A stretch of 34,673 bases of DNA, taken from Pirellulales bacterium (GTDB lineage: Bacteria; Planctomycetota; Planctomycetia; Pirellulales; Thermoguttaceae). Every line of letters begins with the position of its first letter. Within the stretch, counting starts at the first letter, position 1. The stretch lies in the NCBI GenBank assembly GCA_016935315.1, contig JAFGRD010000141.1:76616-111288 (forward strand), given 5' to 3'. The notes beneath the pieces were generated by a model. It ran no database searches, was not told the DNA's origin, and worked only from the letters and a program-made list of their open reading frames with translations. Of the stretch, positions 5,163-22,994 are shown one piece after another. The position numbers and the translations under genes are program-made.

Positions 5163-8100
5163 CTACCTGCCCCGCCCTCCGCCGCCTCGCCCTCCGCCGC
5201 CGGGTCCCCCGCCGCCGGGTCCCCCGCCGCCGCCTTCCATCCGCCGCCGCATCATATCCATGAAGAACGCCCGGCGGTCGTCGGTCGCCGAGGAGCCGCC
5301 TCGCGTAGATCCGCTCGTCGGCCCGCGATAAGAGGAGGTCGTCGACGAGCCGGATCCGCCACTTCGGCCTGACGACCTGTTGAACTGGACGGCATCGCCC
5401 ATCATCGAGTTCAGTGCGCGCTGCACCGCCTCGGGGCTTGCCGTGCGGAGCGTAACCACCTGCATCGCCTGGCTGGTTTCGGTCGCCGCGACGTCGAGTC
5501 GCGTGATCAGTTGCTCGACCTCCGTCAGCAGGGGTTCGGGTGCCGCGACAATGAGTGAATTGCTCCGGACGTCGATGCCGATCGACATCTTCTGCTGCTC
5601 TTCACGCTGGCTGCGGGTGTTGCCGCTGCCGCCCCGGTTGCCGCGAAGCAACCGCATCAGGTCCTCCGGTGACGGCGCCCGGCCGCCACCGCCGCCTTGC
5701 GAGCTGGCGACCATCCGGTCTTGGTACACCTGCCTGAGGATGCCGGCGATTTCGTCGGCCTGGGTATTGAACACGGGGATCATCTTGGCCTTCGGCACGA
5801 CCAACACGTCCTCGGGGCTCCCCTTCTGATCGAGGATCTTCAAGACCTGCTCGATCATGTCGAGGTCGATCGGATTGGCCTGGACGACCAACGCATTGAG
5901 GCGCGAGTCGGGCGTGATCTTGATGGCGCCGGTCGGCGCGATCGTGCTGCCGCCACCCAACCCCAACAACGCGCCCATGATGCCGTCGCCCAGCGCGGCG
6001 CCGGCAAGATCTCCGATCAATCCGCCCCCGCCGCCTTGTTCCGTGGCGATGGTCCCGCCGCCGAGGATCTGGTCCAGCGTCTGAGCCACCACGGCCGCCG
6101 TGGCGTGTTTGAGATAGAAGATCGTCAGCTCCGGACCGGCACTAGTCAGATTCTCGGTCAGCGTCGTCAGCAACCGCTCAAACTCGTTGAGAACCTCGAC
6201 ATCCTGACAGGCGATCATCACGCCGCCGGGCCCGGGCGCCACGATGATCGGAGGCGGTTCCGAAGAATCGGCGAAACTCTGCGGCGAGTCCGCCGACGGC
6301 TCCGCCGTGGTCCCAACCGACGGGCCTTCCTCCCCCCATGGATCGACCATCGGCGGTGCATCGCCCCACGGTTCTTGCGACGGCGGCGCGACGGCTGGCC
6401 GCGAGGGCGGCGTGGGGGCTGGCGGCTCAAGAACCGGTGGCTCGACCGCCATCGGCTCGGCGTCCGCTGGCTCGCCCGCCGGCGGTTCATCGGAGGGCGT
6501 TTCGCTCGGCCGCGGCGCTACGGGCTGCGGCTCGGTCGGCGGTGGTTCCATCGGCTGCGATTCGGCCGGCACTGCCGGAGATTCGATCGACTGCGACGCG
6601 AGAAACACACGCGCGCCCCAGACGGCCCTGGTCGAACGGTCGCCCCGGGAACGGTCGTCACCGCGTTCCCACGGCGGTCGGCCGAAAGACGGAGGGCCGC
6701 GGCGCTGCTCCGACTCGTCGCGACGGCCTTCGTTCGATGGCTGGCGGCCGCCCGTCGCTCCCGGCGTGGACCTCCACATCGCAGGCAGGCGCGGGCTGAT
6801 CGCCGGGTCGGTCATGGGCGCCGCCGGCAACATGCCGGAAGAATCGCCGGGTTCGCCGTTTCGCAGGATGGGGGATACGGCCGACGGGGTCACGACACGG
6901 ATGGGATTGCCGCGCATGGTCGGCCAGAGCTTCTGGATTCGATCCAGTGCCGATTGCGCGGCCCGACCCGTCAACGGCAGCATGCGGACGTTACCGGTCC
7001 CGGTCGCGGTGATCGCTGCTTCGCCGGACTCGCCCATTTTTTCCAACAGGTCGCGGATCTGCTGGATCTGGGCCTCCGTCCCGCGGACCAAAAGCTGTCG
7101 GCTGGTCGGATCGGCGTCGACCTTCGGGGCGTTCTTGGCCGCCTTCTCGCCGCTGGCCTCGAACAGCTTGTTGATCGACAGCACGGCCAGTTGGGGATCG
7201 ATCGTCGTCAGATGAATCACCTCGACCTGTTGCGCTTCGCGCTGCATCTGGTCCAGCGTCGCCCGGATCGTGGCGTGCTCGTAGGGCCGGGCCAAGGCGA
7301 CCAGATTGTCGGTCTTCGGATCGAGCGACAGCCGCACGTCAGGCTGGCCCGCCAAGAGCGTCTGTATTACCGCCAGCACCGACGCCGGATCGGCTGAGGT
7401 GATGCTGTAGACCTCCAGTTGCGGCACCTGGTCGATCTGGGGAACGTTGCTCACCCCACCCTGTGGCGGCACGTCGACCAGCTTGAGGATGTCTTCCAGC
7501 CGCTTGATCGCTTCCGGCTTGCCGGTGACCAGCAGGCGGTTGCCCATGGGATCGAGTGCAAAACGGAGCGAGCCGTCGCCGGTGGCGTTGCCGTCTTCGG
7601 GAATATCGAGCAATCGGCGGACTACGGTGAGGACTTCATCCGGCGTGGCATACTTGATGTCGACCGCTTGCATCTGCTCTTCGCCGTGTCCTTCCGGGTC
7701 TTCGATCCGCCGAATAACCGCGCGGATAGCACGCAGTCTGCCGGCCGTTTCGGTTACCAGCACCTGCCGGGACATCGGCAAGGTGACCACGGAGCCCTGC
7801 GGCCCGACGAGTTTGCGAATCTCGTCCTCCACCTCCTCGGAAGTGACGTTTTCGAGTTGGAACAGCACGCTTACCAACTCATACTCGCCCCGGTCGTCGA
7901 GATCCTCCAGCGCAATGGTGGTGACGAAATTCGGCGGAATCCCGTCTTCGAGGTTGATCAGCATTAACATCCGATTGCGGCGGACGAGCGTGTAACCCTT
8001 GGTCAGCAGGACGCTGTTGAGCAAGTCGATGGCCTCGGCGGCCGTGTACTCGCGGCTGTCGGTGTAGTTGAACGTGCCTTGCGGGGCCATGTCGCCCACG

Positions 8101-9089
8101 TACGACAAGTCGGCCTGCTCGGCAAACCAGTCGATCACGTCTTTCCAGGGCTGGTACCGGAAGTTGAACCGAAGCATGACCGGCTTGTCCGGCGGCTGGT
8201 TGGCCGACGTGCCTTGTTCAGCGCGGTCAGCTGGTTCCGCCACAGTGCCCGGTTCCGCCACCACACCCGGTTCAGATACATCGGTTGGTGGGCCAACAGC
8301 AGGTGCGGAGGATTGGCCCTCGCCAGGCTCGGCAACGGCTGTGTCCGCAGGAACCGCGTCGCCGGGAGCGACGTCAGCCGGCATCGTGTCGCCAGGAACG
8401 GTGTCGGCTGGCGCAGTGTCGGCGGGCTGGGCAGGTTCGCTATCGGCACCGCCGGTGGGAGGGGGCAGAATCCGATCGGCCGCCGGCGGCTCGGCCGGCC
8501 CGGTCGCCTCGCCGCGCACCATGCCCTCCCAGGCCGCTCGCTGTTGACTGGAAAGCACGGTAGAGAGTTTGCGTTCTGCATCGGCGCGGATCACGTGCAC
8601 GGTCTGCTCGTCGGCCACACGGAGTTGCTCATCCCGCTGTCTGAGGATTCCTGCAACCTGGGTTTGCTGTTCGGGAGTCAGCTTCAGCCGGTCGGACACG
8701 GCCGGTTCGGCCGCCGAGGCGAGGCCCAAGCGGCGGATACGGATCCGTTCCAGCAAGGCACGTTGCTGAGCGTCGAGCAGCGCCAGCCCCTTGGCCTCCG
8801 ACTCGCGGCGGAAGGCGACCAGCTTCTGGGCCTGTTCCTCCGGTGTGAGATAAAGCAACTCGACGGCTTCATCCTCACGCTGATCGACCAGTTCCAGCAG
8901 CTTCTGCTTCTGCTCGGCGGCCAGTCCAAGCTCTCGCGCCACGCCTTCATCCTCGACAACGATCGCCAGAACACCGACGAATTCAGACTCAGCGGCGACA
9001 GCGGACAGCGACCCGAGGGCGGACAGAATCGCGGCCACCCCAAGGGCAGCCGGCACACGAAATCGACGGATTCGGCGGATGGTATTCAA
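5163..9089 (-). CDS. Giant exported secretin-N-domain repeat protein without a visible secretin pore
   Basis: 1308 residues if translation starts at the TTG at 9087-9089, which has GGAG 9 nt upstream; a TTG 15 nt earlier (9104) has no such site. Domains (numbered from 9104): signal peptide about 1-38; helical LTPEQ-containing region 45-200 resembling Spy/CpxP-type LTxxQ proteins; Asp/Pro repeat linker 200-310; an N0/STN-like domain 311-395 (LRFNFRYQPWKDVIDWFAEQ); several secretin N (NolW-like) modules about 405-475, 478-546, 562-690; a Pro/Glu linker 740-955; further N-type modules 962-1100 and 1105-1225, with Gly-rich loops; a Gly/Arg tail. The conserved beta-barrel domain expected after the N modules of GspD/PilQ is not recognisable. 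Probably a periplasmic ring or scaffold protein; function unknown. Confidence 0.85.
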   Translation of the reverse strand: MNTIRRIRRFRVPAALGVAAILSALGSLSAVAAESEFVGVLAIVVEDEGVARELGLAAEQKQKLLELVDQREDEAVELLYLTPEEQAQKLVAFRRESEAKGLALLDAQQRALLERIRIRRLGLASAAEPAVSDRLKLTPEQQTQVAGILRQRDEQLRVADEQTVHVIRADAERKLSTVLSSQQRAAWEGMVRGEATGPAEPPAADRILPPPTGGADSEPAQPADTAPADTVPGDTMPADVAPGDAVPADTAVAEPGEGQSSAPAVGPPTDVSEPGVVAEPGTVAEPADRAEQGTSANQPPDKPVMLRFNFRYQPWKDVIDWFAEQADLSYVGDMAPQGTFNYTDSREYTAAEAIDLLNSVLLTKGYTLVRRNRMLMLINLEDGIPPNFVTTIALEDLDDRGEYELVSVLFQLENVTSEEVEDEIRKLVGPQGSVVTLPMSRQVLVTETAGRLRAIRAVIRRIEDPEGHGEEQMQAVDIKYATPDEVLTVVRRLLDIPEDGNATGDGSLRFALDPMGNRLLVTGKPEAIKRLEDILKLVDVPPQGGVSNVPQIDQVPQLEVYSITSADPASVLAVIQTLLAGQPDVRLSLDPKTDNLVALARPYEHATIRATLDQMQREAQQVEVIHLTTIDPQLAVLSINKLFEASGEKAAKNAPKVDADPTSRQLLVRGTEAQIQQIRDLLEKMGESGEAAITATGTGNVRMLPLTGRAAQSALDRIQKLWPTMRGNPIRVVTPSAVSPILRNGEPGDSSGMLPAAPMTDPAISPRLPAMWRSTPGATGGRQPSNEGRRDESEQRRGPPSFGRPPWERGDDRSRGDRSTRAVWGARVFLASQSIESPAVPAESQPMEPPPTEPQPVAPRPSETPSDEPPAGEPADAEPMAVEPPVLEPPAPTPPSRPAVAPPSQEPWGDAPPMVDPWGEEGPSVGTTAEPSADSPQSFADSSEPPPIIVAPGPGGVMIACQDVEVLNEFERLLTTLTENLTSAGPELTIFYLKHATAAVVAQTLDQILGGGTIATEQGGGGGLIGDLAGAALGDGIMGALLGLGGGSTIAPTGAIKITPDSRLNALVVQANPIDLDMIEQVLKILDQKGSPEDVLVVPKAKMIPVFNTQADEIAGILRQVYQDRMVASSQGGGGGRAPSPEDLMRLLRGNRGGSGNTRSQREEQQKMSIGIDVRSNSLIVAAPEPLLTEVEQLITRLDVAATETSQAMQVVTLRTASPEAVQRALNSMMGDAVQFNRSSGRSGGSGSSTTSSYRGPTSGSTRGGSSATDDRRAFFMDMMRRRMEGGGGGPGGGGPGGGGRGGGGRGR

Positions 9090-21920: not shown

Positions 21921-22994
21921 CTACGGGGTCTCGGCCGCCGCCAGCGCGCCGAGCCGGGCCTCGATTTGCCGGCGCAGGGCGTCGGAGGCCCGCCCGGCGG
22001 CCATCTTGTAGTAGGTCTTCGCCACGTTGGACTTGCCCGCCTCCTCGGCCGTCTGCCCGCGCTCGAACAGCACCAGGGCCTCCTTGTCCTGGGCCGCCTG
22101 TTCCAGCTTCCGCAGCCGCCGGGCCTCGTCCACGCTGGGAACCGCCCGGCCCGCCGAGCTCAACCGCGCGTCGGCCAACCGCCCGGCCGCACGGTCGCCC
22201 GGCGGTGGAACCGCGGCCGGCTCGATCGCCTTGGCGGCGCCGGCCGCCATCGGCTGGGCCGGAGGCGCCGCGCCGCCGCCGGCGGCCTCCCGCTGCTGGG
22301 CCAACTGCTGACGCATCGCCTCGACCCGATGGTTCACCGCCGGCTGCGGCGCCACAAACGGCCCGCCCGTGTATCCCGGGTAGGTCATTTGCAGATACGG
22401 ATACGGGGCCACCGGAAAGCCGCCGACGATGGGGATGTAGCCCATCACGAACGGGCTTTGCGAGGTGTCGGAGATGGAGCCTGGCATGCCGTTGGTCAGC
22501 GTGACGCTCGGCGTCTGCGAGACGAAGCTCTGCCGATAGCCTTGCCCGGCCGCCCAGTTCAGCGCTCCGTTGAACCCCCCGCCGCGCATGGCGAAGCCGC
22601 TGCTGAGGCCTGCGCTGGGGTCGTAGCCCCCAAACTGCGGAACGCCCAGCCCGAAGCTGTTCTGGGTAAAGGGAACGGCCGCGCCCGGAGCGAAGACGCC
22701 GGGCGCCTGCATGCCGAACACGCCGCTGCGGCCGTCGTCCACGTCGAGCGTGTTGCGCATCATGGCCCCCGGGTCGTTGCCCACCCCGGGGATCGGCCGG
22801 CCGAACACCATCGACGGCCCGCCGGCGGCGTTGCCGAAGTTGAAGTTCCAGTTGACGCCGGTCCGCTCGAAGAAGCTGTCGTTGAGGCTGTGGTAGGGGG
22901 TCGAGACCGTGACCTGTTGCGCCGCGGCCTCCCGGGCGCCCAGCCACAACCCGACCCCTGCCGCCAGAACCGCCGTGAGCATACCGCGGCACAT
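21921..22994 (-). CDS. Secreted Gly/Ala-rich protein with C-terminal TPR-like helices
   Basis: 357 residues, ATG at 22992-22994 with an ideal AGGAGG site. Signal peptide 1-25 (VLAAGVGLWLGAREAAAQ). Residues 26-205 are Gly/Asn/Phe-rich (NWNFNFGNAAGG, FGLGVPQFGGYDPSAG, PYPYLQMTYPGY), suggesting a loosely folded or beta-rich extracellular region. Residues 220-300 are Ala/Pro linker. The last 60 residues (VDEARRLRKLEQAAQDKEALVLFERGQ, AEEAGKSNVAKTYYKMAAG) look like one or two TPR helical hairpins. No enzyme motif. Function unknown; a structural or assembly role at the envelope is possible. Confidence 0.8.
   Translation of the reverse strand: MCRGMLTAVLAAGVGLWLGAREAAAQQVTVSTPYHSLNDSFFERTGVNWNFNFGNAAGGPSMVFGRPIPGVGNDPGAMMRNTLDVDDGRSGVFGMQAPGVFAPGAAVPFTQNSFGLGVPQFGGYDPSAGLSSGFAMRGGGFNGALNWAAGQGYRQSFVSQTPSVTLTNGMPGSISDTSQSPFVMGYIPIVGGFPVAPYPYLQMTYPGYTGGPFVAPQPAVNHRVEAMRQQLAQQREAAGGGAAPPAQPMAAGAAKAIEPAAVPPPGDRAAGRLADARLSSAGRAVPSVDEARRLRKLEQAAQDKEALVLFERGQTAEEAGKSNVAKTYYKMAAGRASDALRRQIEARLGALAAAETP

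Follow-up and report, generated by a model that had tools for sequence, protein, structure and literature searches.

A barrel-less protein of N0 and N modules from Pirellulales, probably the inner half of a split type II secretin

In the best-studied secretins, the docking domain, the vestibule and the pore are carried by a single chain. In the type II secretion system (T2SS), GspD touches the platform component GspC through its N0 domain, and its N modules are stacked as rings, according to passages of PMC8134430. Divided secretins have been described in the rhizobial type III secretion system, in which one gene encodes a short N-terminal portion (RhcC1) and another the pore protein (RhcC2) (PMC4500985), and in the mitochondrial T2SS, for which the same passages of PMC8134430 report a split GspD (GspDN1–3 and a truncated GspD), Secretin_N on separate proteins and the absence of GspC. 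Here, we describe a gene in a stretch of 34,673 nucleotides (hereafter the window) from the genome of a Pirellulales bacterium (contig JAFGRD010000141.1). This gene, on the minus strand at 5163–9089, encodes an exported protein with an N0 domain and secretin N modules and without a barrel. We suggest that it is probably the inner half of a split T2SS secretin, the pore of which lies on a separate long GspD. N modules without a pore and a pore on a separate protein were both found in this genome; the two halves lie in one secretion locus in part of the relatives, but not in the window genome.

By open-frame reading, the gene has 1308 codons, with a TTG start at 9089 and a stop codon at 5163–5165. 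A start at a second in-frame TTG (9104) would add five residues, and the N-module positions given here were taken from the frame starting there, with five residues then subtracted. Secretin_N matched the protein across seven stretches (Pfam, E = 7.7e-60), and six full N modules and one partial module were counted, in two blocks. The N0 domain (residues ~305–382, 7944–8177; Pfam, AlphaFold and structure alignment) is followed by N modules 1 (residues 409–466, 7692–7865), 2 (472–542, 7464–7676) and 3 (557–619, 7233–7421), all identified by module detection, and by module 4 (621–688, 7026–7229), after which there is a conserved half module with the motif WPT..N.IRVV.PS. Beyond a Pro/Glu-rich linker, predicted to be disordered (residues ~740–945, 6255–6872; AlphaFold, predicted local distance difference test (pLDDT) mostly below 60), the second block consists of module 5 (988–1090, 5820–6128), with a long Gly-rich loop, module 6 (1102–1202, 5484–5786), also with a Gly-rich loop, and the last, partial module (1209–1242, 5364–5465; 12.3 bits only). 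Modules 4 to 6 and the partial module rest on alignment and module detection.

The secretin barrel (PF00263) was not found in the window protein among Pfam matches up to E = 10. When this protein and 19 orthologues were scanned singly (E up to 0.1), Secretin_N was detected in 20/20 and N0 in 12/20, and PF00263 in none of the 20. The Pfam model of the GspD N0 domain (PF21305) gave 17.7 bits on the window protein, below the cut-off of 27, and the NCBIfam GspD model gave 177.7 bits, far under its cut-off of 351.35. A search against PDB sequences matched residues 309–541 to GspD N0-N1-N2 (best E 1.4e-7). The AlphaFold model of residues 300–1245, built on an alignment of 60 rows (the window protein and sequences of related loci), had a mean pLDDT of 74.5 and a predicted template modelling score of 0.36, with 421 residues at 90 or above. 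N0 and most N modules reached about 90 or more, the linkers were disordered, and no beta-barrel was present. The best Foldseek matches of this model were GspD, PulD and XcpQ. With VIA-align, the window N0 was superposed on the GspD N0 (4jtm) with a Z of 11.8 and a root-mean-square deviation (rmsd) of 1.9 A over 79 residues, whereas N0–N3 against PulD (6hcg) gave a Z of 14.5 over 287 residues with an rmsd of 18.3 A, so only single domains superpose well. The original prediction, an exported protein of 1308 residues with N0 and N modules in two blocks, Pro/Glu linkers, a Gly/Arg tail and no barrel, was thus borne out by the open frame, the profile searches, the alignment and the model.

The domain content of this protein and that of the long GspD of the order were found to be complementary. 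In the window genome, its relatives in the order and the named loci (the best 80 of 119 relatives from a wide scan), none of 44 long barrel open reading frames (ORFs) had an N0 domain, and none of 125 ORFs with N0-N1 had a barrel. The 44 include two secretins other than T2SS GspD (L047 and L050), and of the 125, 80 come from named loci and 45 from other loci, with 100 uncut and 25 cut by the end of the stretch. The long GspD of the order mostly have 5–8 detected N modules and a barrel. In 34 of the 42 long GspD of T2SS type, the first detected N module begins fewer than 60 residues after the hydrophobic signal segment, leaving no room for an N0 domain; in the other eight, this gap is 67–96 residues (six proteins) or the first detected module is found much deeper in the chain (L230 and L247). 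A broader N0 profile yielded nothing better than an independent E-value (iE) of about 1 in the 53 barrel ORFs of our first set, and the class A N0-N1 profile matched residues 30–194 of E. coli GspD (E 2.2e-8 among 18 sequences). In other taxonomic classes, the N0-N1 match and the barrel were on one chain in 10 of 11 fetched genomes; three of these chains, from planctomycetes, are giant secretins with N0, 43–45 detected N modules and a barrel, at L266:4308-19529 (5073 aa), L268:2065-15936 (4623 aa) and L270:5096-17737 (4213 aa). The eleventh genome (G197, contamination 6%) has a barrel-less protein of 2095 aa beside gspE-F-G-H-I. In f21, another family of the same class as the window genome, a barrel-less protein lies near gspE in the three loci read (L275, L278 and L280).

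The relatives were divided into class A, the type of the window protein (925 to 1686 aa in uncut frames), class B, which includes many giants, and class C, which is more distant, by a rule on identity, query range and frame length that was set after the results of the N0-N1 search had been seen. In 60 genomes of the order, this search recovered relatives in 38, with class A or B in 33, and the long GspD was present in 41. The N0 protein and the long GspD occurred together in 37 genomes and were both absent from 18, with the N0 protein alone in one and GspD alone in four (Fisher p 1.4e-10, shared ancestry ignored). Furthermore, the 41 genomes with GspD include 31 in which class A and B proteins together are as numerous as long GspD, and 100,000 permutations reached at most 29; the number of class C proteins was not correlated with that of long GspD (rho -0.002). 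This count left out a frame of 1341 aa in G014 that matches only 67 residues, the GspD match of G023 and short secretins, and class C was taken to include two L113-like proteins (from G042 and G059) although the tree places L113 elsewhere. The long GspD barrel served as T2SS marker in place of GspK (PF03934), which was too weak (21/60 at E 0.001, 12 over the cut-off) and misses the GspK of G048 that NCBIfam recognises. The 60-genome and 80-locus sets overlap (G048 with L165) and are therefore not independent.

Gene order in the relatives also points to T2SS. A T2SS gene by our strict definition was found inside the stretch in 14 of the 80 named loci, after two of 16 had been dropped (L141 and L156, with GspE hits scoring like other pilus ATPases). 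A class B gene of G024 about 5 kb from three GspE-like genes (110–463 bits, pilus-ATPase-like) was also dropped, and G027, with only a partial gspE (218 bits) in the stretch, was not counted. In the 32 loci with a 3' flank of at least 8 kb, a T2SS gspE or long gspD was found there in 11: gspE, above 600 bits and on the same strand, in nine and long gspD, on the opposite strand, in two. The corresponding figure for the 5' side was 2 of 37 (gspE, opposite strand). The gaps between class A and gspE are 41 bp in L182, 44 bp in L179 and up to 3.7 kb in the others, and in Rhodopirellula solitaria (L213), the class A stop overlaps the gspE ATG by 4 bp, with a second in-frame ATG 2 bp past the stop. 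A full cluster was read in G048: class A, one ORF on the opposite strand, an LTXXQ gene, gspE-F-G-H-I-J-K-L-M, gspD (1411 aa) and a lipoprotein-like gene. With NCBIfam models, the G048 GspD exceeded the T2SS cut-off (365.7 against 351.35) and GspE fell just short (627.8 against 630.25, with 577.4 for PilB). T2SS models scored best for E, F, G, I and K, just or well under their cut-offs, H and J were weak, and L was PilM-like. The name GspM rests on gene position, because no NCBIfam model matched it at E 0.01 (PilO only at E 0.21). In G055, the class A gene stands between a class C gene and gspD, which is followed by the lipoprotein-like gene. A giant class B gene lies 5' of gspE in G037 and G044 and, in another taxonomic class, in G197. 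The window genome has two long GspD and two T2SS clusters, on contigs C164 (LTXXQ-E-F-G-H-I-K-L-M matched) and C44 (E-F-G-H-I-K matched). The second gspE of this genome (G000:C44:26571-28262, L287) has one TGA stop inside the match in one reading, and the L295 frame is open over 597 aa. The separate pore protein that the original prediction had proposed as a partner is thus supported by the neighbourhood in relatives, co-occurrence, matched copy number and complementary domains; that this partner lacks N0 went beyond what could be known from the window.

A protein of this kind might instead be an envelope scaffold independent of secretion, for example as part of crateriform attachment sites between the membranes. 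According to passages of PMC5394234, planctomycetes have an enlarged periplasm, and their membranes make press-stud-like contacts where crateriform structures occur, which would suit such a role; these passages describe crateriform structures as planctomycetal, yet 18 of the 60 genomes lack both proteins, and gene linkage and copy number point to T2SS. We consider this explanation very unlikely, and the free-standing new envelope structure also envisaged from the sequence is not needed to account for the data.

We infer ring formation, stacking on GspD and docking on the platform along the following lines. The exported window protein would supply N0 and six N modules, its N0 docking on the inner-membrane platform as in other bacteria, and the long GspD would supply further N modules and the outer-membrane barrel, without N0. 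Most likely, both would oligomerise with the same symmetry and stack, their N-module rings together forming an elongated vestibule that spans the periplasm between platform and pore, in which the Pro/Glu linkers could act as hinges. Homology would place the barrel-less protein on the side of the platform, where it would extend the vestibule. As for the order of events, a one-chain GspD may have been duplicated with loss of the barrel from one copy, N0 then being lost from GspD in this order.

Several observations weigh against this interpretation. The window gene lies apart from the T2SS clusters of its own genome, and no T2SS gene was found in 21/32 loci on the 3' side and 35/37 on the 5' side (flank of at least 8 kb). 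The four genomes with long GspD and no N0 protein are 68, 79, 82 and 91% complete, and there is one reverse case; five more genomes hold only class C, one has a single class A protein for two GspD, many are incomplete metagenome-assembled genomes, and shared ancestry was ignored in the statistics. In f21, GspD retains its own N0 in the three loci where this was read (L276, L277 and L279), so a relocation of N0 does not fully explain the arrangement in that family. Of 13 barrel ORFs from outside the order, 11 were matched by the broader N0 profile at an iE of 0.001 or better, but these 13 had been chosen by their N0-N1 match and show that the profile works, not how frequent N0 is; the N0-only profile is weak on distant N0 domains (7.0 bits on E. 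coli GspD). Furthermore, the usual docking partner was not detected: GspC (PF11356) was over the cut-off in none of the 60 genomes, with one weak match in G046 (22.1 bits), whereas the same model found GspC in E. coli and Caulobacter, and phmmer with E. coli GspC gave nothing at E <= 1 in the fetched ORFs. The planctomycete GspM (L121:13593-13967 and homologues) has an extra conserved C-terminal domain, with an R-N-L-F motif and then a beta-rich stretch, which we take to resemble the GspC HR domain or PilP. This resemblance was not supported by PDB sequences, Pfam or hhalign (score of 8.1 for GspC versus 12.7 for the unrelated MrcA), and the domain is a candidate platform partner of N0 only as a lead.

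The N-terminal part of the window protein consists of a putative signal peptide (residues ~1–33, 8991–9089; RRIRRFR, a hydrophobic core and AVA/AE, read by eye in the translation), an LTXXQ-like helical domain (residues 34–205, 8475–8990; sequence search and model) and a poorly conserved Pro/Ala/Glu linker (residues 206–300, 8190–8474; translation and orthologue alignment). At the other end there is a Gly/Arg-rich tail (5166–5357), conserved in kind in the orthologue alignment, with a nearly invariant R1308. The helical domain was modelled confidently (pLDDT 92) and gave no Foldseek match at E <= 0.001. The best VIA-align row was 5io8 (Z 8.0, 82 residues), which may reflect just a common helix arrangement, and no Spy protein appeared by title in the 50 rows shown. 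The LTXXQ family (PF07813) did not match the window segment significantly (E 0.12; none at 0.01). Three rounds of jackhmmer with this domain retrieved 46 hits spanning at least 100 positions, eight of them free-standing LTXXQ proteins; LTXXQ matched 21 of the 47 aligned segments, which include these eight, the window protein not being among the matches. Seven of the eight are encoded next to gspE, and in L177, which holds the remaining one, the contig stops before that point; in L176 and L195, the free-standing protein is among the 46 hits and the barrel-less protein is not. As judged from these alignments, the helical domain is homologous to the free-standing LTXXQ proteins. The Spy-like label of the original prediction is less well supported than its other parts: the region is a confidently modelled helical domain with LTXXQ homologues, without a significant LTXXQ or Foldseek match of its own. 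Its role could be in cargo handling or quality control, but this is a guess.

These features are also relevant to the possibility that the protein is a T2SS assembly or regulatory factor, soluble or wall-bound, that would guard the N modules of GspD as a chaperone or decoy outside the conduit. No membrane anchor was seen by eye past the signal peptide, the linkers are predicted to be disordered, and the LTXXQ domain resembles periplasmic chaperone or sensor proteins by family name only. However, if the conduit consisted only of GspD, the usual docking domain would be absent from it, since no N0 was detected in the GspD of the order. The number of class A and B proteins follows that of GspD, and the single chains of other classes with N0, 43–45 N modules and a barrel show that long arrays occur within the secretin itself. 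We therefore consider such a factor unlikely and favour the split secretin.

In the midpoint-rooted N0-N1 tree, class C (support 1.00) and class B (0.92) were recovered, whereas class A was weak as a single group (0.39). The N0 domains of GspD from other taxonomic classes fell on the opposite side of the tree (0.87 against 0.81), and those of the f21 GspD among the barrel-less classes (0.35). The wide scan covered one genome per species (84,980 species) and was seeded by three peptide patterns. The best 80 of the 119 relatives comprise 78 with planctomycete titles, one titled 'bacterium' and one 'Candidatus Nealsonbacteria'; no stretch of a viral contig matched. The restriction to planctomycetes that had been proposed fits this searched set, but more distant relatives could exist elsewhere. 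The class A gene on the Nealsonbacteria record (L154) seems to lie on a contig of a relative from the order (G015:C1023), and its title probably arose by an error of binning or naming. Given its secretin N domains and missing barrel, the window protein could also be a degenerate GspD paralogue with no present function. We regard this as highly improbable, because class A reading frames are long and conserved across many genera, with many invariant residues, and class A or B persists in more than half of the genomes searched.

Each of the three classes has one member in the window genome itself, that of class B being a giant; Secretin_N proteins without a PF00263 match, other than the window protein, are a frame of 3751 aa starting at the end of contig C7 and a protein of 1260 aa on C33. 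The fetched class B frames reach 3955 aa, and the maximum of 50 detected N modules was in a 3815-aa piece of a class B frame listed with 5394 aa. Were each ring to add 2–3 nm, six modules would contribute less than 20 nm and 48 at least about 100 nm. Such a reach would suit the enlarged planctomycete periplasm described in passages of PMC5394234. In a bolder version of the split secretin, barrel-less N-module rings would be interchangeable (class A with about six modules, class B with up to about 50), docking on the T2SS pore as a conduit of adjustable length that bridges a periplasm far wider than that of other diderms and could also make up the press-stud contacts beneath crateriform pits; we hold this to be rather unlikely.

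The immediate neighbours of the window gene are an ABC permease and ATPase on the 5' side and a putative glycosidase on the 3' side. No T2SS gene was seen around it, and this neighbourhood, taken alone as a guide, would have missed the link to T2SS; when the neighbours in the first 20 class A loci were clustered, no gene was common to more than four loci. About 13 kb away, at 21921–22994 on the minus strand, an exported protein of 357 aa without a Pfam match at E 0.01 appears as a truncated barrel-like fragment, its residues 14–222 sharing 44% identity with a portion of the P0007 barrel region; P0007 is a secretin of 1500 aa on contig C164 of the same genome. On this contig, L050:1175-5677 encodes a protein of 1500 aa with a secretin domain, tetratricopeptide-like repeats seen by eye and no Pfam Secretin_N match. 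In the loci with long gspD, a conserved gene beside it (L121:18322-19416 and homologues) was matched in 33 of 37, some scores being weak; it has a lipobox-like start by eye and no Pfam match, and is a candidate pilotin.

Planctomycetes are rich in carbohydrate-degrading enzymes and have an enlarged periplasm, as stated in passages of PMC11131199 and PMC5394234. In the titles and opening lines of abstracts that were listed, we found no account of planctomycete barrel-less secretin proteins, this search leaving aside supplements, including the secretion-protein inventory figure of PMC5394234, and most subscription papers and preprints; such proteins are not mentioned in passages of the surveys PMC6668835 and PMC4793230. 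Much of the order seems to place the docking domain on a protein of its own and to build a vestibule of six to about 50 modules. The split arrangement opens to experiment the question of how platform, vestibule and pore come together, and offers a molecular handle on planctomycete protein transport across an enlarged periplasm. Annotation of any Secretin_N protein as a secretin may also miscount the secretion systems of the phylum.

The window protein shares the N0 and N1–N3 folds of GspD, PulD and XcpQ but, unlike these canonical secretins, it has no barrel and carries an LTXXQ-like domain, Pro/Glu linkers, a Gly/Arg tail and extra N modules. The long GspD of the order resembles the Myxococcus Kil secretin, KilC, in lacking N0, but KilC is short and the passage of PMC8460266 names no separate N0 protein. 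The division into two proteins is like that of the rhizobial and mitochondrial secretins. However, RhcC1 is a short remnant in a type III system with a Tad-like pore (PMC4500985), whereas the proteins described here belong with T2SS, have six to about 50 N modules and have a pore partner that keeps many N modules without N0. In the mitochondrial GspDN proteins, N0 is wholly missing and the modules are single or half, in the passages of PMC8134430, whereas in our case the barrel-less protein retains N0 along with many modules. Thus, split secretins were already known, but the proposed splitting of a T2SS secretin with N0 on its own protein is new here, and the expansion to about 50 N modules is unusual.

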